Below the pieces are notes generated by a model that saw only the letters and a program-made list of their open reading frames with translations, was not told where the DNA came from and made no database searches. The translations under genes and the position numbers were made by a program. DNA of 28,796 nt from positions 1-28,796 of IMG/VR virus record IMGVR_UViG_3300034198_008629. The stretch is one strand, 5' to 3'. This document shows, in pieces, positions 10,212-28,121 of this stretch (its first letter is position 1; each line of letters starts with the position of its first letter). The DNA is from a virus.

Positions 10212-10661
10212 TTATAGAGCTTCATAATAAGCAGGAATAATTAAAGACTCTCCAGCAAAATTAATTCTAATCCAATAATCTGGAGCTCCTAATACAGTAT
10301 TATCTTGAAGAATAGTTGACCCATAAGCATATTCTATAGCACTTCCTCCATAACTAGAAATATTAGCGCCGTGAATAGCTCCTGTACCTGCTAATACTGT
10401 AAATCTTTGCATCTCAGAAGCATTATCTCTGTAAGTAATATATAACCCAAAGTTATCATATTCTAAAGCTCCCATCTCAAGATTATTTAACACATCACTA
10501 TCTTCTGCAAAATACAAAGGAGCTTGTCCTAGATTTGTACCTCCAGAAGCAAGATGTAATCCTCCTTTTGTCTCAGACATTTGAATAGTATCTACAGTTA
10601 AAGTATCTGTAATAACTAGAGTATTACTTATTGTAACTGGTTCACGAAATGTAGCTCCCAT
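10212..10661 (-). CDS. Short fiber / adhesin-like protein
   Basis: The 149-residue product begins with the repetitive strands 'TISNTLVITDTLTVDTIQM', typical of a trimeric beta-structured shaft, then has 'GQAPLYFAEDSDVL' and 'MGALEYDNFGLYIT'. The pattern 'APLYF....L....GA.EYD...LY.T' is common in phage tail-fiber and chaperone-type fiber proteins. The last 50 residues are rich in Gly, Ser and aromatic residues and may form the tip. It lies last in the block of decoration and fiber genes, just before the lysis cassette. Whether it sits on the head or tail is unknown. Confidence 0.6.
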   Translation of the reverse strand: MGATFREPVTISNTLVITDTLTVDTIQMSETKGGLHLASGGTNLGQAPLYFAEDSDVLNNLEMGALEYDNFGLYITYRDNASEMQRFTVLAGTGAIHGANISSYGGSAIEYAYGSTILQDNTVLGAPDYWIRINFAGESLIIPAYYEAL

Positions 10662-10680: not shown

Positions 10681-11379
10681 TTAAACTTTAACTTTAACTA
10701 TATTTAATAATGCAGTTCCTGTTACTGTAAAAGTTCCTCCCCCAGTGTATGATGGAACTACATGTTTAAATTTCATTGTTCCGTTAGAAGCAAATTCTAT
10801 TAATAGTCGCATATCATAAAATATTCCTGTAAATCTTTCAGAAATAGTAGCTGCAGGAGTTTGATTACCAGAAAGGTACCAACTATTTGTTGCAGGATGC
10901 CACTCATTCCAAGAAGATCCGTTTTGCATAAATCGTGATGTTACAGTAGGAGGAGTAGTTAAACCAGTAAAAGTTCCAGAAACTTGAGAAACCATAATAT
11001 TTAAAATATAAGTATATTCCCAAGTTTCATAAATATCTGAAGAAGTACTTATGATTGACGGAAAATTAGTTCCATCTATTGTATAATATATATTATTTCC
11101 AGTACCTACAGTTGCTGAAACTGTTAAATTGTATGTTACAGTCTGTATATTAGGATTTGAAGTAGTATAAATATTAGTAGGTCCAAGAGATCCAGATACA
11201 GATTGCCAAGTAGCATCTCCCCTTAAAAATTTTAGTTGATCTCCAGCAACAGGTTGTGGTACAATACCTGCAGTACCATTAGTGCTAGAAGTAGCACCAA
11301 CCATAGGAGTTCCTGTATTTCCAGTTCCGCCAGCAGTATATTTAGAATTAAGTTTAGTATTAACTAAGCTACGGCTCAT
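10681..11379 (-). CDS. Beta-rich fiber or head-decoration protein
   Basis: The 232-residue protein starts 'MSRSLVNTKLNSKYTAGGTG' and contains 'AGDQLKFLRGDATWQSV', the 'L.GD.TWQ' motif often found at the junction of shaft and head domain in phage fiber proteins. The rest ('YNLTVSATVGTGNNIYYTI', 'FMQNGSSWNEWHPATNSWY' and a C-terminal 'FKHVVPSYTGGGTFTVTGT') looks like a jelly-roll or similar beta-sandwich. Its ATG overlaps the TGA of the preceding 129-residue gene (ATGA), so the two are probably made together. A carbohydrate-binding tip is plausible but not shown. Confidence 0.6.
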   Translation of the reverse strand: MSRSLVNTKLNSKYTAGGTGNTGTPMVGATSSTNGTAGIVPQPVAGDQLKFLRGDATWQSVSGSLGPTNIYTTSNPNIQTVTYNLTVSATVGTGNNIYYTIDGTNFPSIISTSSDIYETWEYTYILNIMVSQVSGTFTGLTTPPTVTSRFMQNGSSWNEWHPATNSWYLSGNQTPAATISERFTGIFYDMRLLIEFASNGTMKFKHVVPSYTGGGTFTVTGTALLNIVKVKV

Positions 11380-11765
11380 TTGAAATAGATTATTTTTAAG
11401 TATCTAGTGTTAGGACCATTACCAGAGTCTATTACTCTAAAAGCAGATATGTTATCTCCACCTCTTAATTCAATAGTATCTCCATCACCAATAGGAATTC
11501 CTGTCTTATCAGGAGTATTTCCAGTTACAGGATTTACTCCATGCAAAGTATATCTAGCTCCTACCATTTTAGCACTAGAAGCATCTGGAATTTCAAGAGT
11601 AACTTCTGCACTAATAGCTCCTGAAGGAGGTGATAACGCAGATACAGTACTGGTAGAAAGAGCTATAGCTTGATACCCAACACATATTTTACCTCTAATT
11701 TCAAGAGATAATACTTTAACTATACTGCTAAGAAGTTCTTCTGTAGTATTAGGAATAGTAAGCAT
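11376..11765 (-). CDS. Decoration/attachment-like protein, paralogue 1
   Basis: This 129-residue protein is clearly related to the one encoded at 12318-12707. Shared features are an N-terminal helix 'TTEELLSSIVKVL', 'GKICVGYQAI', 'SAEVTLEI', 'ARYTLHG', then 'GIPIGDGDTIELRGGDNI' with 'AFRVID', and a final 'LKIIYFK'. The C-terminal 'GD.DTIE..GG.NI.AF.VI' block resembles small phage virion proteins with a beta-sandwich fold. I cannot name the family. It is followed, with ATGA overlap, by a fiber-like gene, so it may be the virion-binding base for that fiber. Confidence 0.6.
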   Translation of the reverse strand: MLTIPNTTEELLSSIVKVLSLEIRGKICVGYQAIALSTSTVSALSPPSGAISAEVTLEIPDASSAKMVGARYTLHGVNPVTGNTPDKTGIPIGDGDTIELRGGDNISAFRVIDSGNGPNTRYLKIIYFK

Positions 11766-11785
11766 ATAAAATTGTATAAACTATT

Positions 11786-12316
11786 TTAACAGTTAGTAGT
11801 TAATGTAAAGGTATTTCCTAATGGTTTAGTGTAATCAATAGTACCTCCAACAGTTAATTGATACAATTGAAACTGCATACTGGTAGCTCCTCCTCCACTA
11901 AGACAAGAAAGGTCAAATTTTAATTGATCCCCAGAAGTAAGTGGACAACAAAAAGGAGGAGTAACATTAGTATTAAGTCCAGCACTTAAACTTCCTTCAG
12001 CTTGAGTATAAATAGATACATTATTTTTATAAAATTTTATAGCCCCATTTATTCCAGTACCTAAGTTAGTAAAATCAACTCCTATATTTATAGTACTTAT
12101 ATTAGATGTAATTGTTACATTATTTGTGTAAGCAGTACCTGCAGCATTTGTAGCAGTCCATACAGTAGGACTTAGAGTATAAGTTTGAACAGCAGTTCCT
12201 CCTGAAGATTTAACATTTTTAGCAACTCCTAACTTAGGAAATCTTTTTTTAATTAAAGATTTTCCTGAAGAATTTTTTCCTGCAGCTAAATGTGTTTTAA
12301 TAAGAGCTTTTTTCAT
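11786..12316 (-). CDS. Beta-rich virion-associated protein of unknown role
   Basis: The 176-residue product has a strongly basic N-terminus of about 40 residues with many Lys ('MKKALIKTHLAAGKNSSGKS' and 'IKKRFPKLGVAK'), followed by a Thr/Asn/Ser-rich beta region with 'NISTINIGVDFTNLG', 'FCCPLTSGDQLKFDLSC' and a C-terminal Cys. The size and composition suggest a jelly-roll like domain on a basic anchor. It is placed between the two paralogous 129-residue genes and starts one base after the stop of the upstream paralogue. The Cys pair recurs in neighbouring proteins. No specific function is recognised. Confidence 0.55.
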   Translation of the reverse strand: MKKALIKTHLAAGKNSSGKSLIKKRFPKLGVAKNVKSSGGTAVQTYTLSPTVWTATNAAGTAYTNNVTITSNISTINIGVDFTNLGTGINGAIKFYKNNVSIYTQAEGSLSAGLNTNVTPPFCCPLTSGDQLKFDLSCLSGGGATSMQFQLYQLTVGGTIDYTKPLGNTFTLTTNC

Positions 12317-12317
12317 C

Positions 12318-12707
12318 TTATTTAAAATATTGTACTTTTAAAGCTTTAGAAACAGCATCCATTCCAATTACTTTAAAAGCTGCAATATTATTGCCTCCTA
12401 AAATTTCAATAGTGTCAAAATCTCCAAGGGGTACTCCAGCTCCAGTAATAGCTGTAGACGTAGGAGAGGTAGCACTTAAACTATATCTTACAGCAGCATT
12501 AGTAATAGTACTTGCTGTACTTCCCACTTCTACAGTAATTTCAGCTGAAGTTGCTCCACTATAAATAGATGAAGTAAGACTCTTTACAGTAGAAGAGTCA
12601 GTTATGGCAATAGTTTCAGAACCTATACAAGTTCTGCCATTAAATATTTTAGAAAGATAATCTCTAGAAGCAGCTAAAAGATTTTCAGTTGTTTTTCCAA
12701 TATTCAT
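12318..12707 (-). CDS. Decoration/attachment-like protein, paralogue 2
   Basis: The 129-residue protein has the same length and layout as the one at 11376-11765: 'TTENLLAASRDYLSKI', 'GRTCIGSETIAI', 'GATSAEITVEV', 'AVRYSLSA', 'GVPLGDFDTIEILGGNNI' with 'AFKVIG', and a final 'LKVQYFK'. By eye the two share well over a third of positions, concentrated in the C-terminal half. Each is followed by a different beta-rich protein. This suggests duplication of a base protein serving different partners. Location on the virion is unknown. Confidence 0.6.
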   Translation of the reverse strand: MNIGKTTENLLAASRDYLSKIFNGRTCIGSETIAITDSSTVKSLTSSIYSGATSAEITVEVGSTASTITNAAVRYSLSATSPTSTAITGAGVPLGDFDTIEILGGNNIAAFKVIGMDAVSKALKVQYFK

Positions 12708-12723: not shown

Positions 12724-13305
12724 TTATTGTGCAGTAGCAGTAAGTTGACCAGTAGCAGGGCTATAACTAAGATTGTATAAAGTTTCATCAGCTTGTTGAC
12801 AGCAATCACAATCACAAATTGCTTTGGTTTTATCTAATATAGCTTGAATGTCATCACAAGATAGTGAATTATTCATTATTACAGTAGCTGTAGGATTAGT
12901 GGCTGCAGGATCTGTTACTATATCTCCCTGTACTACAAAAGTAGTAAGTCCTGGAATAGCCAGAATAGGAACTGAAGTTACATTATACCCAGAATTACTA
13001 AATCCTAAAATAGATACTAATTGACCTATTTGAAAGTTGTGATTAGAGCTAGTAGTATATTTTATAGTTTTACCATTACCATAAGCTGCAACTACTCCTA
13101 CACTTACATCAAGACTATCAATACAATTAAGTGCCACATAAGCTAGAGTAAGATATTTCAAATCGTACTCTTTACATTTAGCAAGATCATATCTGCCAGC
13201 AGCTCTTAATCTTGCATATTGCTTAGCAAGATCTCCCATGCAACACTGCACCTTAAAAGTCAAGCCTTTAAGTTGAGAAGTAGTAAATTGAGTACAAGTA
13301 GCCAT
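12724..13305 (-). CDS. Cys-rich structural protein with inserted beta domain
   Basis: The 193-residue protein has a helical N-terminal half with 'QCCMGDLAKQYARLRAAGRY', a central beta domain at about 72-143 containing 'NHNFQIGQLVSILGFSNSGY' and 'TTFVVQG', and a C-terminal helix ending in the cluster 'ICDCDCCQQADE' (163-174). The central domain resembles that of the 279-residue protein at 14505-15344 and segments of the large fiber. The Cys cluster could bind metal or form disulfides between subunits. The gene lies 2 bases downstream of the collagen-like fiber gene, so a role in attaching that fiber is plausible but unproven. Confidence 0.55.
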   Translation of the reverse strand: MATCTQFTTSQLKGLTFKVQCCMGDLAKQYARLRAAGRYDLAKCKEYDLKYLTLAYVALNCIDSLDVSVGVVAAYGNGKTIKYTTSSNHNFQIGQLVSILGFSNSGYNVTSVPILAIPGLTTFVVQGDIVTDPAATNPTATVIMNNSLSCDDIQAILDKTKAICDCDCCQQADETLYNLSYSPATGQLTATAQ

Positions 13306-13307
13306 AA

Positions 13308-14483
13308 TTAAGCAAATCTAGTAATTGATAGTTTAATAACGTCACCATTTACTGTAGCATAGTTATATCCAGTAGCATTAATTACTCTATGCTCATACTG
13401 CTCTCCTGCATTTAAAAGTATAACGTTAGAAACTCCACTCATAATACATTGTCTTGTTCTGTAAACACAGTTCCATTGAGCTGGTGCATAAACATTTCCA
13501 GCTGTAGAAGTTGCAGTAACTCCACACACACTGGCAAAAATAGATTGAGCTCCTGATCCATAAGTAATTGGAGTAGAATTCCACCAACCATTTGTTGCAT
13601 CGGAAGTTCTGCTCAAAATCATCATCCAACTAAACTGATAATAACCAGTTGTATCTACAGTATATTTTCCAGTACTTACATTAAAGCTAGAAGCTGGAAT
13701 AGCGGTGCTATTAGTAGTTACTGCAGTAATAGTGTTTGTACCTGAATTATAAAGTATGTTAATTCCTTGATCTCCTAAGAAAGTACTTGAATAAGTATAA
13801 GAGCTTGAATTTAAAGTAGGAGGACCATACATACTAACTACTAAACTTCCAAAAGTATTTATAGCGCTATTTCCGTTAATAGTTACACTTACTAAAACAT
13901 TATCAGTAGCTAGTAAGGTCCCATTACCTCCTAAATAACTTACTGTAAAAGTGGTCCAAGATCCAGCACTATTAGTTACTGCTGTTATTTGGTAAGCAGC
14001 AAAAATAGAAGAATCTGATTTTTTGTAGATTTTTAAAAGGCCCTTTACAGTGTTATTTACGTTGTAAAGTAAACTTTGATAAAGGTTTTGTCCTAAAGTA
14101 TATACACCACTTGATGCTGAAGTAGCATTACTTATGTAAATAGAAGTAGTGTTTCCAGCAGTAGTTCCGCTAAAAGCTACTTTACCATTAGTAGGATCTG
14201 CAGAAGATGCAGAAAATTGTGAAAAAGTATATGGAAAAGTAACTCCTCCATAAGCTCCATCAGCTCCTGTTGCTCCTTGAGAGCCAGTAGCCCCAGTAGC
14301 TCCAGCTGGAATACCAAAAACTAATTGTGAAGCACTAGTAGTTCCGTTATTAGTTACTGTAGGTGAAGATCCAGCACTTAATCCAGTAGCTGATACAGAT
14401 ACTATTGCACCAGCAGGACCTTGAGGACCAGTTGCTCCTGTAGGAAGATTTATTTGTAAAGGATCATTGCAATTTACACACAT
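13308..14483 (-). CDS. Collagen-like fiber protein with C1q-like C-terminal domain
   Basis: The 391-residue protein begins 'MCVNCNDPLQINLPTGATGP' and holds two short Gly-X-Y tracts, at about 16-26 and 57-79 ('GATGATGSQGATGADGAYG'). The linker between them, with 'TVTNNGTTSASQLVFGIP', is a known phage fiber element of the form 'VTN.GT...A.L.FGIP.G'. A beta-rich middle follows. The end has 'STGKYTVDTTGYYQFSWMM', typical of the C1q/TNF-like trimeric head ('G.Y.V...G.Y.FS'). The whole reads as a trimeric fiber with a collagen stalk and globular tip, suited to binding surface glycans or mucus. A tail or head fiber location cannot be decided. Cys2 and Cys5 may anchor it to the Cys-rich neighbours. 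Confidence 0.72.
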   Translation of the reverse strand: MCVNCNDPLQINLPTGATGPQGPAGAIVSVSATGLSAGSSPTVTNNGTTSASQLVFGIPAGATGATGSQGATGADGAYGGVTFPYTFSQFSASSADPTNGKVAFSGTTAGNTTSIYISNATSASSGVYTLGQNLYQSLLYNVNNTVKGLLKIYKKSDSSIFAAYQITAVTNSAGSWTTFTVSYLGGNGTLLATDNVLVSVTINGNSAINTFGSLVVSMYGPPTLNSSSYTYSSTFLGDQGINILYNSGTNTITAVTTNSTAIPASSFNVSTGKYTVDTTGYYQFSWMMILSRTSDATNGWWNSTPITYGSGAQSIFASVCGVTATSTAGNVYAPAQWNCVYRTRQCIMSGVSNVILLNAGEQYEHRVINATGYNYATVNGDVIKLSITRFA

Positions 14484-14504: not shown

Positions 14505-15344
14505 TTAGGAACAGCTATCACAACTAGTGGTACCAATCATGGCATTAAGACAATCCAGAACATCTTGTGCTCCAGTAAAATCTTGACAAGCTGCAAGGTG
14601 ACAAGCTTTATCTCTTAAGATATAAGCCTGATACAACATATTAAGTTTCGTGTTATTTGAATCAGAGCAAGAACTACAGCAGTTAATATCTTTTAACATG
14701 CTGTCCAAAGTAGCTCCAATTGTACAATCTACTACTACATAACAAGTAGAAGAATATATAACTCCAGCATTAGTAGAAGTATATACAAATTTATATACTC
14801 CATCAGTAGGAGTTATTGTGGTATTAGTATATCCCTGAGAAGTAGCTGTAAGTCCATTAGCAGTAGCAATTCCAGGAACATCAATAGTAAATGTATTGGT
14901 AGTAATGTTAGTAATTACACCAGTAATATTGTGAGTAGACGCACTACTTCCTGTAATAGTTACAATTTTTCCAATTGTATAAGGATGTGCTAAAGTAGTA
15001 GTATATACTATATTATTATTTGAAGAGCTTGAAACAGAAGAAGTAATAGCGTAGGTAGTACTTAAAGCTGTCTGATAAGAAGTAATGTTATATTGAACTA
15101 CTCCAGGAACTCTAGTGCCATCATATGTAGTTTTAACAGTAGGCACAATTACGGTTCTAGTAACAGTAGGATCAGCCATATTGGTGATCTGGAAATTTAT
15201 TGCCGTAATTCCTGTAGCAAGAGCATTAGGGCTACCATATCCATTAGGAGCAGTACCACTATCATATGCAGGAGTAATATCTTTCACATAAAAAGAACTG
15301 CAACCTGCTGTAGTTTTTACTGAAAATTGTGTTACTAAAGCCAT
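14505..15344 (-). CDS. Cys-rich structural protein with beta insert and helical C-terminus
   Basis: The 279-residue protein has a beta-rich N-terminal part with 'YVKDITPAYDSGTAPNGYG' and 'VPGVVQYNIT', a central domain at about 110-172 ('LAHPYTIGKIVTITGSSAS', 'NITGVITNITTNTFTIDVPG'), another strand region 'DGVYKFVYTS', and a helical C-terminus with 'CTIGATLDSMLKDINCCSSC' and further Cys at 248, 253, 265, 275 and 278. The central domain is shared with the 193-residue protein and the large fiber. Its ATG comes about 17 bases after a strong intrinsic terminator, so expression depends on read-through or antitermination. Likely a minor virion protein linked to fibers; not otherwise recognised. Confidence 0.55.
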   Translation of the reverse strand: MALVTQFSVKTTAGCSSFYVKDITPAYDSGTAPNGYGSPNALATGITAINFQITNMADPTVTRTVIVPTVKTTYDGTRVPGVVQYNITSYQTALSTTYAITSSVSSSSNNNIVYTTTLAHPYTIGKIVTITGSSASTHNITGVITNITTNTFTIDVPGIATANGLTATSQGYTNTTITPTDGVYKFVYTSTNAGVIYSSTCYVVVDCTIGATLDSMLKDINCCSSCSDSNNTKLNMLYQAYILRDKACHLAACQDFTGAQDVLDCLNAMIGTTSCDSCS

Positions 15345-15422: not shown

Positions 15423-16829
15423 TTACAGAGTACCAACAATAGAACTCAACTGACTTGCAAATTTATCCTTATTGCCAGTGTTAGCAGTAGGGAAGAAAAA
15501 GAACTGTTGAACACGCATAGGGTTAGATCCTTCAATTACATTGATAGAACCTAAAGCATTATCCAAACTTTCAATTGCAGTAGTTGTGTAAGTAGCAGGG
15601 GTTGTGGTATCTGTAAAGTTTCTACCAGAAGGAATTGGAACTTTCATACGGTTCAAAACTCCTTCAAATCCAGCTGCAAAGCTTTCGTATTCTGCAACTT
15701 CTTGGTAGTAACCAACACCTTTAGAAGATTCCTGGTGAGTCTGATACGTAGTGGTAGGGGAAGCAGCATCAGTAGTGCTACCAGTTTTAGTAAACGTCGT
15801 AGCTCCAAAACCTTTAGTATCAAAGTGAAATTTAACTTTGTTATACTTAAAGAAATCTTTCTGCCAAGTCAACGGAAGACCACTAACCGTAAATCCCCAG
15901 TAAGTACCTGCAGTTGCAATAACTCCAGCGTTAGCAGTTGCTACAGCAGCAGAAGGACCTTGGTAAGCCATGTTAATACGAGCACTATAAGCAGGCAAAC
16001 TACCACTAGCAGAAGCAGTATTGTTAGATTCTACAATAGTATAAACTGGAAGGTTAACAAATCTGCCAGAAGCAGTACCACTGTTAAGAGAAGCTCCAGT
16101 GTCAGGATCCGTTGCAGAAGCATTAAATCCAATTCTGATCAAGTTTTTAGCTACGTTATCAGTAGAAGCTACTCCAAAAGTAATAATATCAGAACCGTTT
16201 GCTACAGTCAAAGTAGTGATAGCGTTGATAGCTGCTGCAGTTCCAGAGTTGAAAATTTCAGATTTTACCATACGGCCAGTACCATTAGCAAGACCCAATC
16301 TTTCTTTGTAGTTGATTTGGGTAGCCATGCTGATAGCTACATCTTTTGACGTAGGAGCCTGAGAATAGTAATCATAGGTATTACGAAGCTTCTGCTCAGA
16401 CCACATCATATCATCATGGTCATAAGCAATAGTCAACATAAATTCATTACCTTGAGTTACATCGATAGTGTCAGTACTAGCATAGTGACCAGTAAAACCT
16501 ACACTCCATACTTGCTCTTTAGGAGCGGTATAAGAAGCAGTTTTTCCAAAAGAAACTTCAGTACTTTTAATACGAGGGCCATAAAAAAGTTGGTTACCCT
16601 GTCTCATAACAGCTCTCCAATAAGGATATGCAGCTGCTGTGTTGCTTGAAGTAGGAATAACTACCTCTTTACCATCGGAAGCTCTAGTTCCAACAGCAAT
16701 AATTTGACCATCTGCAATGCCAGTGCTGGTATTGAATGGGTCTTCCAATGTGATGCTGGCAATTGCAGTTCCTGTTACGGACTTGCCAACAAACACATTC
16801 ATCATGTTTTTTGTTCCAAAAACGGACAT
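15423..16829 (-). CDS. Abundant virion structural protein (tail-tube-like or second capsid-associated; role uncertain)
   Basis: The 468-residue protein starts 'MSVFGTKNMMNVFVGKSVTG'. It has a beta-rich N-terminal half with 'YGPRIKSTEVSFGKTASYTA' and 'WSVGFTGHYASTDT', then 'KLRNTYDYYSQAPTSKDVAI' before 'SMATQINYKE', a variable Ala/Thr/Ser middle, and 'GVGYYQEVAEYESFAAGFEG' followed by 'VLNRMKVPIP'. The combinations 'YDY......T..DVA...A.QIN' and 'Y..VAE.E.F..G..G...R....P' recall a family of large phage structural proteins described as tail-tube or major virion proteins. Codon choice is closer to the capsid gene than to the fiber genes, and it precedes a strong terminator, which supports high expression. 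In a podovirus-like crAss relative, a tube role would be unexpected, so I leave the role open. Confidence 0.6.
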   Translation of the reverse strand: MSVFGTKNMMNVFVGKSVTGTAIASITLEDPFNTSTGIADGQIIAVGTRASDGKEVVIPTSSNTAAAYPYWRAVMRQGNQLFYGPRIKSTEVSFGKTASYTAPKEQVWSVGFTGHYASTDTIDVTQGNEFMLTIAYDHDDMMWSEQKLRNTYDYYSQAPTSKDVAISMATQINYKERLGLANGTGRMVKSEIFNSGTAAAINAITTLTVANGSDIITFGVASTDNVAKNLIRIGFNASATDPDTGASLNSGTASGRFVNLPVYTIVESNNTASASGSLPAYSARINMAYQGPSAAVATANAGVIATAGTYWGFTVSGLPLTWQKDFFKYNKVKFHFDTKGFGATTFTKTGSTTDAASPTTTYQTHQESSKGVGYYQEVAEYESFAAGFEGVLNRMKVPIPSGRNFTDTTTPATYTTTAIESLDNALGSINVIEGSNPMRVQQFFFFPTANTGNKDKFASQLSSIVGTL

Positions 16830-19044: not shown

Positions 19045-20481
19045 TTAATAGGATACGTTAGGAATAACTTCAGCTGCAGACAGCGGGTTACGCAACATGA
19101 TACCTTGGGTACACATGTAGTGCCAGCTGTAACCATCAACTTTAGAAGCTCCCATTCCGCCATTCTGAGGACCTTGCGTAGGATTAACCGCGCCAGGAAC
19201 ATACCATTTCTTCTCAGAACCTTTAGGCATAACCTTCTGAATGTTAGGTTGACCATCCGTGGTACCAACGTTCATGATAGTCATACGATAGTTCTCAGTA
19301 TAACCACCATCAGGGTGTGGCAAACGGTTGTCAATTGGATCATCATACTCAGGCATGTGCATAACGGTGTATTTAACACCCTGCGGGCCCAAGAAGGTCT
19401 TGTACTGACCACTGAATCCAAGGTTTTGACCAGAGCCAAATACACGCTTAGAATCAAGAGGTTGGAACAAGTGAACTTTATCTTCAATAAGGCGGTGGAA
19501 TGAAATCATACCACGCTCACCAGTCAGGATCAAGAATTCACGCTGATCTTCAGGGAGAATGTTGATAGACAAGTTCAATGCTACTTCAAACAAGTAGTCC
19601 AAAGTAAGCTGGTTGTAATAGAACTTGTAGGAAGGAGAGATCTGCTGACGAAGACCAGCACCCTGCTTAACTACAAAACCATTGCGTCCTTTGTTAGCAA
19701 TAGAACCATCAGACTTTTGGTTAATCTTGGAGAACATCAGGTTATTAGCCTTTTCTTTCTTCCACTGATAGTCAGTAACAATATCTTGCCAACGGGTCCA
19801 CGTGGTGAAGGGCTTACCATCATAGGTAAGTTTGATCAACAGAGGACGGTCATGCATGTTACCTGCAACAATCTGCTCTTTAGACATGGTAGAGAAGATG
19901 TTACGCATTTTAAAGTGAGAAGTAAACTGAGGGCCAGAGTACTCATCATTCAAAGTGTTAGTAACAGCATTCCAACCACGAGAAACTTTTCTTCCTGCAG
20001 TCAACAACTGCGGAGGAATGAAAGATCCAATAGAAGGATCCATAGTTTGTACTTCATATACCCAGTTAGTACCATCAGCATAGCCGTCAGAAACAATTCT
20101 AACAGTATACTCTTTGTCATCAAACTGAAGTACATCAGACATACCAAACCAACGCTCTTCCAAAGTAAGAGTGAAGATAGCTTGGTTAAGACCAGGACGG
20201 GTAGCATCACCTGAGGCAAAGCTTACAATTTTGATAGCCTTGCGGTCATCACCTTTGAGCATCCACTCATATTCTCCATCATGTTCCATGATTTTAACTG
20301 GATACTTGGACAAGAAGTTGTCCAAACCAGAGTAGCCGAGCTTGTTAAATACTTCAGTTACGATATCAGAAGCAAGCTGCGGCTCATTTTGGTAAATAGC
20401 ATACAGGTGGTTATCCGTAGTTAGGCCAGCCCAACTTTTGGAGTAAGACACCTGTAGCGCATTAATTCCTTGAATTGCCAT
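19045..20481 (-). CDS. Major capsid protein, crAss-like (HK97 fold expected)
   Basis: The 478-residue protein begins 'MAIQGINALQVSYSKSWAGL' and includes 'DGEYEWMLKGDDRKAIKI', 'RPGLNQAIFTLTLEERWFG', 'LILTGERGMISFHRLIED' and near the end 'WHYMCTQGIMLRNPLSAAE'. The 'TGERG...FH' block and the length fit crAss-like major capsid proteins as I remember them. Its codon use is more GC-rich than its neighbours, with CGT/CGC for arginine where the fiber genes use AGA, as expected for the most abundant virion protein. The preceding gene is an acidic scaffold candidate, the usual partner in assembly. No N-terminal prohead protease site can be recognised. Confidence 0.85.
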   Translation of the reverse strand: MAIQGINALQVSYSKSWAGLTTDNHLYAIYQNEPQLASDIVTEVFNKLGYSGLDNFLSKYPVKIMEHDGEYEWMLKGDDRKAIKIVSFASGDATRPGLNQAIFTLTLEERWFGMSDVLQFDDKEYTVRIVSDGYADGTNWVYEVQTMDPSIGSFIPPQLLTAGRKVSRGWNAVTNTLNDEYSGPQFTSHFKMRNIFSTMSKEQIVAGNMHDRPLLIKLTYDGKPFTTWTRWQDIVTDYQWKKEKANNLMFSKINQKSDGSIANKGRNGFVVKQGAGLRQQISPSYKFYYNQLTLDYLFEVALNLSINILPEDQREFLILTGERGMISFHRLIEDKVHLFQPLDSKRVFGSGQNLGFSGQYKTFLGPQGVKYTVMHMPEYDDPIDNRLPHPDGGYTENYRMTIMNVGTTDGQPNIQKVMPKGSEKKWYVPGAVNPTQGPQNGGMGASKVDGYSWHYMCTQGIMLRNPLSAAEVIPNVSY

Positions 20482-23198: not shown

Positions 23199-26100
23199 TT
23201 ATAAAGTTTTTAAATATATTATAGGATTACCAGGAAAACTATTAGCAGTTAAAGTTGAAATATAAGCATCTAAGTTACTAGGCAGGGTAGTGAGCGCTGG
23301 AATAACTGATGGAGCTCCTTGTTCAAAAAAACTATTTCCAAAATTAGCTGCAAATAAATTTACTCCAGTAGCAGCAGAACTTCCAGTCAATGGAGCAGTA
23401 AATCCTGCCCAAGATTCATTGGTATCTAACCCTCCAAAAGCTAAAGCTGAAGTAGAAACGACATTTGAAGCAATAAAAAATCCATAAAGGTCTCCTGCAC
23501 TAAGAGCTATAGGAGTTGTAAGAGCTACGGATTTAATTAGTGTGGCAGTTCCTAAAACTGGTACTCCAGTATCTGCAGCCATAATAGCAGAATTAGGACT
23601 TATTAAATACCCAGTAACATATTCTGGGCCTACCATTTTATAGATTCCTATTATTATTTTAGAACCAGCACTTCCTGCAGCACTAAGTGACACAGCCATT
23701 GTAGTTATTTCAACATCATAAGGAACAGTAAATAAAGTAAGCCATCTAAAATTATTACCACCCGTAAGAGTTAAAGAAGCTGATGCATTATAAGCATATC
23801 CTCCAGCATTTATAGTACTAGGGTCAGTAACATTTATACTTCCTGGAGTAATCCAAGCTCCTGATTTAGGTTTAAAACTTCTTAAAGTTTTTCTTCCTTG
23901 TAAATCATACAAATTATTGCCAGGTATAGTTCCTGTACTATAACCTTGTCTTAATACAGTTCCTCCACTTGTAAAACTTCCAATAGTAGGATTATTTAAT
24001 ACAAATTGAGTAGTACTTGGAACAGAAGTAATAATTCCAGCTCCATTATAACCTAAGGGAGTTACTCCTGTAATAATCACGCTATCTCCAACAGAATATC
24101 CATGAGGAGTAGTTCCTGTAGTATATGTAACATATAAACCTGTACCAGAAGCTGCTGTAATATTATATTTAGTACCTACGTATGCAGAAGCATTTGTAAG
24201 AGTTGCTGTACCAGTAGTAGTTCCATTTATATTAAATGTGTAACTAGAGGCTAACGAATAAACAGCAGTTCCTTGAGTACCATAAACAGCATCTACTTCA
24301 GTTATTGTTACCCCAGTTCTAGCTGTAAGTCCAGTTGTTTGACTTACTGTAAAAATTTTATTAGTGGTAATACTTGTAACAGTTACTGTTGAAGCAGAAG
24401 TACTAGGTAATCCTGTCGCGGTACCTGCAGATTGATATATTTTTTGTCCTATATAAAGGCAAGCCGTTGTTTCGTTAGCTGTTGTTCCTGTTATAGTAAC
24501 TACACCAGTAATAGCTACACTACAAGTTAGTGGTACAATAACTGTATTGGCACTTAAAGCTGATGGGCTAAATCTTGTTGCTCCAGTTCCTCCAGATACT
24601 GCTACATGGTTAGCACTCATTGTAAATGTAGTGAGTCCCGTAATAGTAGCTATTGTAGCCGCAGTTGCAAAAGTAGCAGCTCCATTAGAAACTACTATTA
24701 AAGTTTGACCTACAAATAAACCTCTAGTATTTCCCGTAGTAAGAGTTACAGTAGCTACTCCTGCAGTTAAAGTAGCTACTAAATTTCCTGGGTTTGCATA
24801 TGTTATACTATTAATAGTAGAACTTACATATTGTCCTGTAAGATTAAAAGCGCTATTTACTAATCCAGAAATAGCAATATTATCTGTAGAAAGGAAAGGT
24901 GGATTACTTGCTAAAGTATAAGTAATTGTAGTAGAAGTTGCAGATACTGCAGTAATATTAGAATTTCTAGAAATAGCTTGTGTATAATTAATAGCTGTAA
25001 CCGCGCCTGTAAGACTATATCCAGATGGGGTAATTCCTGTAGTAGTTACTGTATCTCCTAATTTAAATTTTGGGTAATTACTAATTCCATAAGTCTGACT
25101 AGTACCATTTCCAGAAGCACTTCTTACTGGAATTTCATTACCAGAATCAAATTTAGCAGGTGACCCAGAACCTCCAGAAACCCACTCAGGAGTATTTGAG
25201 GTAGTATTATATGCAAGTACATAACCATTTGTAATTGGAGCTACTAATTGTTGAGGAGTTCCTCCTGACCCACCATAAATAATAGATCCTTGGGCATTCA
25301 TTGGGTTTGTCAACCCAGAAACCCAATAAGTTGTATCATTACTAGTATTATAAGCTAATAATTGTCCATTAATAGCTGCTCTATCTTCAGGAAATACAAA
25401 ATTCCAATTATTAGTTGTAGTTTCAGAAGGTTTAAGAACTACATGATTTGCACTTCCGTTAGGTTGTAAAGTTAGAGATCCAGCACCATTTCCTTGCAAT
25501 CCTAAAACAGGGTTAGCGGAGTAATCTGGTTTATGTGATAATCCCTGTGATATAAGAACTTGTCCAAGATCTACAGCATTTATAAAACTAGTAGTACTTG
25601 TATTACTTTGATATAAAAGATCCCCTGGACTTCCTGAAGATATATTTGTAGCATTGCTAACTGAAAGGGGAGACCAACTAGTTACTCCATTACCATCAGT
25701 TTTCAAATACTCTCCATTGTTTCCAGCACTAGTAGGCAATGTTAAACTCCAACTACCAGCATTAAGCGCTGTTTGAAGAGTAACTGTTCCAGAAGTAGCT
25801 CCTGATAAAATTAATTTACCAGCACTAGCACCTGCTAATCCAAAAGTAGCAACACCGTCTTTTCTAAATGAAAACCTATCAGATCCTCCTATTTGATATT
25901 TAGCAAATGTAGAAGCTGTATTAGAGCCAGTATCTGTGATATTTAATAGTAAACTATTAAAAGTTGTTGCCCCACTATTCCAAGTTTGAGTTAAACTATG
26001 TATAGGATTAGAAGCAGAAACTGTACCTGCAGCAAATAAAGATCCACCATTAACTCTTAAAGCATAGTTAGATATTCCTGTAAAAGCACCATTTGTAAAA

Positions 26101-28121
26101 GAAGGTGTAACATCAAGTCCTACAAGAACATCGTTATTTGCTGACGCTATTAAAGTAGGAGTAAAATTTATTCCTCTTGCAATTAAACTAGCAGCTGTTA
26201 CACTGTTATTTACAAGTAATGCAGCAGTAGGACTAAACGTAAATGTAGCACTTCCTGTTACAGCACTTCCACTACTCCAATATGTAATTTGACCAGCTGT
26301 TCCTGAACCACTTATTCCAGGGTTAATAGCTGCTATATTACCATTTAATTTTTGAATAGCTTGTAATATAGTATCTGAAGCTGATATTGTTCCAGAACCA
26401 CTTACATAATTAGTAAGTGTTGATGCTATAGTCCTAGCATTTGTATAATATTTATTTGAAGGAGTAGCAGTCTCAGGAACAGTATCCGTATTTAAAGTCT
26501 GCCAAGTTTTATCTCCCCTCCAATATTGAGCAGTAGTTCCAGTAACTATTGCAGGCTCTTTGCTATTAAATGTTCCCCAATCACCGTTGCTTAAATAACC
26601 AGATTGACTATTAGTAGCTGCTGGAATGCTAAATACTCCAGTAGTATTATTATAACTTAAAGGAGCTGTAGCACTTAATGCTGAAAGACTTACATAAGCT
26701 GGAGTAAAATATTCAAGAGCTGATGCTCCAGTATTTACTCTAAGTAATTGTCCAGCTGTACCTAATGTGTTAAGCCCTGTACCTCCATAAGATGGAGAGA
26801 TGAGAGTACCATTCCAAGTACCTGTTGTAACAGTTCCTAAAGTATTTAAACTAGTGCTTCCTGCTAATGGACTTGCTCCTATTGTATTATAAGAAACAGT
26901 TCTAGCAGTACTACCATTATAAGTAGTTCCACTAGCATCTCCAGTACCTGAGTTATTAAAAGTAACTGTATTTGTTACAGATCCAGCAGTTCCATCAATA
27001 CTTACACCTGTAAGAGATAAAGATCCACTAGCTCTGTTAATAGCTACTTGAGTAGTACCAATATAAAACTGTTGGGTTGGAAGAGCATAATCAGTTCCTG
27101 CAGTTGCAGTTGCTATAACTCCACTAGAAGCTTTTAGCATTCCAGTATTAGTAGCTCTTTTAATTTGTTTTCCAGTAGTACCGCTAAATAGAACAATCTC
27201 ACTATCAACAGATAAGCTAGGACCAGTTACATCCCCTGCACCAGTAGGAGTAGTCCAAGCAAATCCAGCTCCGTTCCAACTTAAGTAAGTACTTGATGTT
27301 GTGGGCGCTGTTACAAAGTTAGTTGTGTTAGCTCCAGTTTGATATAAAAGTTGGTTGGCTGCCCCACCTGTAATGCCAGCAGCTGTACCTGTAGTATTTT
27401 GATTTAGTGTGGGAAAATCAGTAGAAATTGCTGTAGATAAAACACCTGTAGTAGTAGTAACTTTAAGAATTCCTGTACTTAAAGCTCCTAAAAATTGAGC
27501 TCCTGAAAGACCAGAATCAGCTGTTCCTTGTACAATAAACTTATTTGTAAAAGCCACATCTGAACTACCATCTACACTATTACCAGCTAATAATCTTGCT
27601 GTAGTCCATTTAGCAGCAGAACCAGTTGTATTAGCAGCATTATTTGGAATATCTGCAGATACAAGACCTCTAAAAGTTGGAGTAGCGTTAGCTCCGCTAG
27701 TAGGTCCTGCTAAAACTGTATTAGCAGCCTGGGTTCCAAAATCAGAAGCTGACACTGTAAGAGTACCAGCTAATGAGATTGTGCCTGTGGTAGTAATAGC
27801 ACTACCTCCAGTACTTAATGATAGTCCACTAATAGTATTACTACCTACTGAAATACTTGTTACAGTACCTGTACCTACAGTTTCTTGAGTCCATCCATTA
27901 GTATTACCTACGTTAGTTATATCAGTAAGTATATAATATTTACCTAATGAAGTAACCCATACTCTAGTTATTTTTTCTTTTAGCTGGTCTACGTTAGCTG
28001 AAAGAGCATATAAAGCTGTAGGGTCTGCTACAACTCTTCCACCGCCCCTGACAAAATTAGAGTCAGCAATAGCAAGAACAGGATTATTATGTTCATATAT
28101 GTCAGGTCTCTTAATAGCCAT
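23199..28121 (-). CDS. Large tail fiber protein
   Basis: The 1640-residue protein opens with 'MAIKRPDIYEHNNPVLAIAD', 'DSNFVRGGGRVVADPTALYA' and 'LSANVDQLKEKITRVWV', a recurrent attachment module in fiber proteins of Bacteroidota phages. A very long repetitive shaft follows, rich in Thr, Ser, Gly and Ala, with elements such as 'SYGGTGLNTLGTAGQLLRVN', 'YWRGDKTWQTLN' and 'DGVATFGLAGASAGKLILSG' that recur in phage fibers. At about residues 1010-1400 lie several beta domains of the 'G.SVGD.V.ITG..P.GYN' type. The C-terminal ~190 residues, starting near 'LTGGNNFRWLTLFTVPYDVE', form a compact beta domain likely to bind the receptor. No cleavage or chaperone motif is visible. It starts 2 bases after the stop of the upstream fiber gene. 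Confidence 0.78.
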   Translation of the reverse strand: MAIKRPDIYEHNNPVLAIADSNFVRGGGRVVADPTALYALSANVDQLKEKITRVWVTSLGKYYILTDITNVGNTNGWTQETVGTGTVTSISVGSNTISGLSLSTGGSAITTTGTISLAGTLTVSASDFGTQAANTVLAGPTSGANATPTFRGLVSADIPNNAANTTGSAAKWTTARLLAGNSVDGSSDVAFTNKFIVQGTADSGLSGAQFLGALSTGILKVTTTTGVLSTAISTDFPTLNQNTTGTAAGITGGAANQLLYQTGANTTNFVTAPTTSSTYLSWNGAGFAWTTPTGAGDVTGPSLSVDSEIVLFSGTTGKQIKRATNTGMLKASSGVIATATAGTDYALPTQQFYIGTTQVAINRASGSLSLTGVSIDGTAGSVTNTVTFNNSGTGDASGTTYNGSTARTVSYNTIGASPLAGSTSLNTLGTVTTGTWNGTLISPSYGGTGLNTLGTAGQLLRVNTGASALEYFTPAYVSLSALSATAPLSYNNTTGVFSIPAATNSQSGYLSNGDWGTFNSKEPAIVTGTTAQYWRGDKTWQTLNTDTVPETATPSNKYYTNARTIASTLTNYVSGSGTISASDTILQAIQKLNGNIAAINPGISGSGTAGQITYWSSGSAVTGSATFTFSPTAALLVNNSVTAASLIARGINFTPTLIASANNDVLVGLDVTPSFTNGAFTGISNYALRVNGGSLFAAGTVSASNPIHSLTQTWNSGATTFNSLLLNITDTGSNTASTFAKYQIGGSDRFSFRKDGVATFGLAGASAGKLILSGATSGTVTLQTALNAGSWSLTLPTSAGNNGEYLKTDGNGVTSWSPLSVSNATNISSGSPGDLLYQSNTSTTSFINAVDLGQVLISQGLSHKPDYSANPVLGLQGNGAGSLTLQPNGSANHVVLKPSETTTNNWNFVFPEDRAAINGQLLAYNTSNDTTYWVSGLTNPMNAQGSIIYGGSGGTPQQLVAPITNGYVLAYNTTSNTPEWVSGGSGSPAKFDSGNEIPVRSASGNGTSQTYGISNYPKFKLGDTVTTTGITPSGYSLTGAVTAINYTQAISRNSNITAVSATSTTITYTLASNPPFLSTDNIAISGLVNSAFNLTGQYVSSTINSITYANPGNLVATLTAGVATVTLTTGNTRGLFVGQTLIVVSNGAATFATAATIATITGLTTFTMSANHVAVSGGTGATRFSPSALSANTVIVPLTCSVAITGVVTITGTTANETTACLYIGQKIYQSAGTATGLPSTSASTVTVTSITTNKIFTVSQTTGLTARTGVTITEVDAVYGTQGTAVYSLASSYTFNINGTTTGTATLTNASAYVGTKYNITAASGTGLYVTYTTGTTPHGYSVGDSVIITGVTPLGYNGAGIITSVPSTTQFVLNNPTIGSFTSGGTVLRQGYSTGTIPGNNLYDLQGRKTLRSFKPKSGAWITPGSINVTDPSTINAGGYAYNASASLTLTGGNNFRWLTLFTVPYDVEITTMAVSLSAAGSAGSKIIIGIYKMVGPEYVTGYLISPNSAIMAADTGVPVLGTATLIKSVALTTPIALSAGDLYGFFIASNVVSTSALAFGGLDTNESWAGFTAPLTGSSAATGVNLFAANFGNSFFEQGAPSVIPALTTLPSNLDAYISTLTANSFPGNPIIYLKTL

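Follow-up and report, generated by a model that had tools for sequence, protein, structure and literature searches.

The principle of a constant attachment part that carries exchangeable bodies is well known among phage receptor-binding systems. The Klebsiella phages with T4gp10-like domains and the branched spikes of the Ackermannviridae both combine such a constant part with exchangeable bodies and with several fibres per virion. In the Klebsiella phages, the anchor or branching domain lies within the receptor-binding protein itself (PMC6872550), and the branched tail spikes of the Ackermannviridae are likewise a modular receptor-binding system (PMC11414711). Bacteroides phage crAss001, from the same virus order as the locus described here, has head fibres, gp21 and gp29, and a tail fibre, gp22; these are held by short N-terminal stretches (residues 1-38, 1-58 and 1-26, respectively) and have separate bodies (PMC10172136). 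A small decoration protein of the virion, gp10 of phage epsilon15, is listed as a predicted beta-jellyroll (PMC7602432). At the present locus, in contrast to the Klebsiella and Ackermannviridae systems, a small jelly-roll protein of 129 residues, encoded by its own gene, is the proposed base and a peptide of only about 13 residues the proposed fibre anchor, and no sequence link to either of those systems was found. No sequence or structural match of the 129-residue family to epsilon15 gp10 was obtained in the searches made. In the partial literature texts available, neither the family nor, for crass-like viruses, any base-plus-plug cassette was described, which is a weak negative; the parts, and not the principle, are new.

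The window is the whole sequence of a 28.8-kb virus record (28,796 nt), and the minus strand carries every gene in it that has a strong family match. A crAss-like major capsid protein is encoded at 19045-20481 (minus strand; phrog_11589, E 3.8e-84). It was matched in 130 of 50,697 phage records, with a best identity of 35%, and the taxonomy of the three capsid-matching records that were looked up is Crassvirales. Genes for proteins of 240, 226, 177, 270 and 1583 aa match counterparts in Cellulophaga phage phi14:2 with their order kept, and those of 240 and 1583 aa also match crAss001; the gene types matched are ring-type tail genes, a muzzle-type gene and an HU/IHF-like gene. Based on the capsid match and the order of the tail, muzzle and HU genes, we therefore conclude that the window comes from a crass-like virus that is, as judged from these comparisons, distant from the named members. 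The genes for the 129-residue proteins sit in a virion gene cluster with capsid and tail genes on one side and lysis genes on the other. Between the auxiliary-protein position and the endolysin, phi14:2 has 10 genes, 6 of which are annotated with experimental MS/MS virion evidence, and therefore, by analogy, most of the fibre cluster of the window is likely to be in the virion.

The initial annotation had described two paralogous 129-residue proteins of equal length, each in front of a different beta-rich gene, and had read them as a duplicated base with interchangeable fibres. The first copy, 129A (12318-12707), and the second copy, 129B (11376-11765), are both 129 aa long, start with ATG and are encoded on the minus strand. 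BLASTP aligned them with 54 of 132 positions identical (41%; 61% similar; E 1e-26), and the global alignment score of 201 was far above those of 1000 shuffles (mean -24, sd 12, maximum 21). The pairwise alignment, for which a lack of homology had been named as the contrary outcome, thus revealed homology, and all five motifs that had been quoted were read directly in both sequences. By these measures 129A and 129B are true paralogues that arose by duplication. The family had no match below E 0.01 in Pfam, PHROGs or NCBIfam, where phrog_21641, "virion structural", reached E 0.29 only, and no match among PDB sequences. When the 50,697 phage records were searched by tblastn with 129A, 129B, copy a of the relative L018 (see below) and a consensus, none or one chance match (E 9) was returned, and 113 pattern stretches from 84,980 species genomes contained 0 relatives of the family. 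The profile of the family did not match the crAss001 record, and among the 1606 ORFs of the loci fetched for comparison nothing but the four members already known scored below E 0.3.

In the order of transcription, a gene for a 193-aa Cys-rich protein is followed after 16 nt by 129A, after 1 nt by the gene for a 176-aa protein (11786-12316, minus strand), after 20 nt by 129B, with a 4-nt overlap by the gene for a 232-aa protein (10681-11379, minus strand), and after a further 19 nt by the gene for a 149-aa protein (10212-10661, minus strand). The last of these has no significant family and is probably another small virion fibre protein; it closes the cluster. The next gene in the list lies 235 nt away, and the lysis genes come beyond that neighbour. 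Outside the two pairs the spacing is 16, 20 and 19 nt, versus 1 and -4 nt inside them; each 129-aa gene is thus tightly packed against its downstream gene. Phage operons often have such tight spacing. The claim that each copy precedes a distinct beta-rich gene held for the distinct partner, and the richness in beta structure is plausible from the partner sequences.

A BLASTP comparison of the 176-aa and 232-aa partners gave E 0.059 over 7 residues, and their bodies are unrelated. When the 425-aa fibre-like protein encoded in L018 is added, the bodies of all three proteins are mutually unrelated and the first 13 residues look alike, starting with MKKALIKTHL in the 176-aa and MSRSLVNTKL in the 232-aa partner. 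The N-termini were compared by ungapped scoring, using 629 gene N-termini from the fetched loci and 20,000 random pairs. Left out of this comparison were L001 and L016 (same contig as L018), L014 and L015 (pieces of the window) and L022 (seemingly the L021 virus again); all of these except L022 were also left out of the profile search over the 1606 ORFs, of the survey of small ORFs described below and of the comparison of gene arrays, the last of which took in 16 loci and covered the arrays of L027 and L033 in part. The N-termini of the 232-aa and 425-aa proteins were each other's best match among the 629, with a score of 23 that was reached by 0.18% of random pairs. The scores were 15 (0.4% of random pairs) for the 176-aa and 232-aa proteins and 9 (1.7%) for the 176-aa and 425-aa proteins, and in the ranked lists unrelated genes equalled or outscored the matches of the 176-aa protein. 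The likeness in sequence is good for the 232-aa and 425-aa N-termini, and it is suggestive for the 176-aa N-terminus with either of the others. A motif that fits all three partners and no other of the 629 N-termini was built from those three and carries no weight as evidence. A gp29-like N-terminus of the partners was considered and rejected, as gp21 ranked 566 and gp29 ranked 75 of 629; an exploratory look at a five-sequence alignment with gp29 showed no relation.

Behind the second copy, the partners (232 and 425 aa) have thus kept a short N-terminal peptide and changed the rest. Residues 18-75 of the 232-aa protein match phrog_4302 (E 5.1e-10), and tblastn against the phage records found a linker, at about residues 26-78, also in the tail fibres and minor tail proteins of phages that are otherwise unrelated. 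This linker was the only part of the protein that was matched in the searches, in which the C-terminal part had no match, and a model of the protein (mean pLDDT 40) was too poor for use. The 176-aa protein had no relatives in the searches made.

Viral contigs were searched with each 129-residue copy and with two alignments, and one query gave nothing and three gave the same single contig, IMGVR_UViG_3300045581_000123 (L001, L016 and L018 are the same contig). Likewise, of the 22 complete records from which the fetched loci came, only that of L018 contained the family. Here the two copies, a and b, are adjacent and 1 nt apart with no gene between them, and copy b overlaps by 1 nt the 425-aa gene, the body of which is unrelated to that of the 232-aa protein. 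The copies keep their order after the same Cys-rich domain as in the window. Copy b is 64% identical to 129B, and copy a is about 40% identical to 129A, which is no closer than 129A is to 129B (about 41-42%); so, by sequence identity, either copy A is fast-evolving or its strict orthologue is not copy a. Between the window and L018, identity is 68-85% for the endolysin, exonuclease, ring and tail genes on the flanks, and the bodies of the partners have no detectable similarity. With the flanks and the 129-residue copies kept and the partners changed, the cluster thus turns over fast, and the 129-aa genes stay in it.

Since a 425-aa gene lies behind copy b and none behind copy a, the partners vary, and since copy a has no partner of its own, a base can do without one. 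The search for further copies and partner swaps, as had been proposed, therefore yielded both copies in L018, with one swap (the 425-aa gene) and one absent partner. Of the idea of a duplicated base with interchangeable fibres, the duplication, the varying partners, the shared peptide behind the second copy and the virion cluster are borne out. "Interchangeable", however, comes from one comparison of two genomes, because only one relative has the family, and the base and adhesin roles are predicted ones.

Several side observations were made around the same genes. At 1-2829 of L018 a large protein with SprB repeats (PF13573, E 6.4e-10) carries, as a fusion, the Cys-rich domain found ahead of copy a, and the same domain in the window is a small separate protein; by eye, L006 and L010 have other large bodies on a similar Cys-rich domain. 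Two contigs with the same sample number (3300016263), L003 and L017, end at opposite sides of the fibre cluster, where L003 stops soon after a 157-aa gene and L017 stops within a 368-aa-like gene. Strain differences at the fibre cluster may have caused the assembly to break there.

An AF2 model of 129A, with four sequences as input, had a mean pLDDT of 76.1 and a pTM of 0.68 and consisted of an N-terminal helix (residues 6-19) followed by beta strands in a jelly-roll-like arrangement. Foldseek against BFVD gave 18 matches at E <= 0.001 (best E 1.2e-04), which included small proteins from phages, 92-102 residues long and with no known function. One of these, A0A6J5MDM4 (102 aa, uncultured Caudovirales phage), was matched with a TM-score of 0.75 on the target, an rmsd of 2.9 Å and 22% identity. 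Proteins of this type, which are annotated as "uncharacterized" only, lack the N-terminal helix region of the 129-residue family and have no detectable match to it in sequence. A comparison with the PDB by VIA-align returned many unrelated jelly rolls and cupins that were tied at Z 7-8.5, with none outstanding; no base protein of the same fold was matched convincingly among the solved structures (Z up to 8.5, unrelated jelly rolls). Phage decoration proteins were not prominent among the ties in this list, which excludes nothing. YomS (6i5o) was present at Z 7.1, with an rmsd of 4.5 Å over 94 residues, tied with unrelated jelly rolls. The 129-residue proteins are thus predicted to be jelly rolls, and the shared fold does not assign a function to them.

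On the capsid side of the pairs, a proposed capsid auxiliary protein (15423-16829, minus strand) at the gp36 position of crAss001 was recognized from gene order and from a profile match of local extent, with E 4.7e-05 and a probability of 68%. Directly after it lies the gene for a beta and Cys-rich helical protein of 279 aa (14505-15344, minus strand), and this is followed by the genes for a collagen-like fibre protein of 391 aa (13308-14483, minus strand; phrog_4120, minor tail protein, E 1.6e-05) and for the 193-aa Cys-rich helical protein, which has an inserted beta module (12724-13305, minus strand) and a Cys-rich domain with 50% identity to the C-terminal end of the large protein encoded before copy a in L018. 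The 279-aa and 193-aa proteins resemble the hub proteins of crAss001 in position and in their Cys-rich helical ends. In the crAss001 gene table, gp38 and gp39 are the next virion genes after the auxiliary gene, and they form the tail hub that holds the N-terminal 26 residues of the fibre gp22 (PMC10172136). The comparison by hhalign, with very shallow profiles, gave probabilities of 0.1% for the 279-aa protein versus gp38 and 0.3% for the 193-aa protein versus gp39. The profile tests gave no support, so "tail-hub-like" is a guess from position for both proteins.

A beta module of about 55 residues was observed inside the 279-aa protein (about residues 112-143), the 193-aa protein (about 66-126) and a 1640-aa protein encoded at 23199-28121 of the window (about 1320-1376, perhaps also 999-1095), with pairwise BLASTP E-values of 7e-06 and 3e-08. 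It has the look of a surface module that is mobile and has been inserted into proteins of hub-like type. Another class of fibre, seen at 13308-14483 of the window and in L006, L010, L011 and L044, starts with a short Cys-rich peptide (by eye, for example MCVNCND, MSCSNCN, MGCCD and MCCKGC) and continues with collagen-like repeats. This start peptide is possibly a second kind of anchor.

In a survey of 400 small ORFs in 44 loci, paralogous pairs within one locus were found in the window, in L018 and in L021 with its near-duplicate L022, and L023 had one distant non-adjacent pair. In L021 (1673-4792), two paralogues of 142 and 145 aa stand in tandem, with 43% identity, and are followed by a 104-aa protein and then by a fibre-like protein of 646 aa, the middle of which looks by eye like an SGNH hydrolase. 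The profile of the 129-residue family had no match among the small proteins of L021 and L022. Two further links were tried and rejected, namely a relation of the 104-aa protein to the family (hhalign probability 0.9%) and the N-terminal peptide on the L021 fibre (rank 511 of 629). The pair in L021 and L022 therefore suggests that an arrangement of small paralogues close to a fibre may recur in the order Crassvirales, made with different parts.

The paralogy, the gene pairing, the virion neighbourhood, the changed or absent partner and the peptide common to the 232-aa and 425-aa proteins are all observed. From these we infer, tentatively and at a little under even probability, that the 129-residue proteins are bases or adaptors in the virion, on the head or the tail, each of which contacts and holds the fibre encoded behind it through the N-terminal peptide, with the fibre binding the host. 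Each base would be translated together with the adjacent fibre gene and would be attached to the virion, perhaps by its N-terminal helix. It would grip the short basic N-terminal peptide of the fibre and leave the fibre body free to be replaced, and two diverged bases would provide two slots. A more specific version, in which the jelly-roll bases read a plug of about 13 N-terminal residues, host range changes by replacement of the rest, and the same logic operates with unrelated bases in L021 and L022, is possible and on balance doubtful.

The small size and predicted jelly roll of the 129-residue proteins, together with a cluster that begins right after the proposed capsid auxiliary gene, would also suit capsid decoration or head-fibre proteins, comparable to gp21 and gp29, that stabilise or decorate the head, with the downstream genes coding for separate head or tail fibres. 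The predicted beta-jellyroll of epsilon15 gp10 is in line with this, as is the statement that most crassvirus groups lack detectable homologues of gp21 and gp29 and that other proteins may serve instead (PMC10172136). We nevertheless consider it unlikely, because the N-termini of the partners are unlike those of gp29 or gp21, the profile is absent from the crAss001 record, the cluster lies at the position of the tail-hub genes of crAss001, and the tight pairing with a downstream gene would be left unexplained. That pairing also speaks against independent small virion or tail-tip proteins, with a receptor-binding or accessory role, that precede the fibre genes through operon packing only: the second copy overlaps a fibre-like gene in both genomes while the body of that gene changes, and the 232-aa and 425-aa proteins share their N-terminal peptide. 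Such independence is likewise unlikely, even though copy a of L018 is kept without a partner, the fold is common to many small uncharacterised phage proteins, and the family is narrow and fast-changing (about 40% identity between 129A and copy a), as expected of surface proteins.

The conserved pairing of the second copy would also fit a chaperone outside the virion that aids the folding or trimerisation of the adjacent fibre. Fibre chaperones are usually small proteins encoded next to the fibre gene in overlapping reading frames, and their genes usually lie after the fibre gene. The 129-aa genes precede the fibre genes, however, and their fold matches phage proteins of no known role rather than known chaperones, which makes this reading quite improbable. 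The place of the cluster just before the endolysin gene and the presence of YomS in the structural list might instead point to lysis accessory proteins like XepA and YomS of Bacillus prophages. We regard this as very improbable, since the match to YomS is tied with unrelated jelly rolls at 4.5 Å, fibre-like genes lie between the 129-aa genes and the lysis genes, and YomS itself was not toxic (PMC6834076). We thus return to the base or adaptor as the preferred reading, for which the present evidence is a good lead and not a demonstration.

Beyond the cultured gut isolates, crass-like viruses have surface proteins that mostly lack an assigned role, and the determinants of host range in this very abundant order are poorly understood. 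If the 129-residue proteins are bases of the kind proposed, receptor-binding genes of crass-like viruses could be recognized by a simple rule, namely a separate small base gene and a fibre with a short plug, and this rule would let the turnover of host range in these viruses be read.
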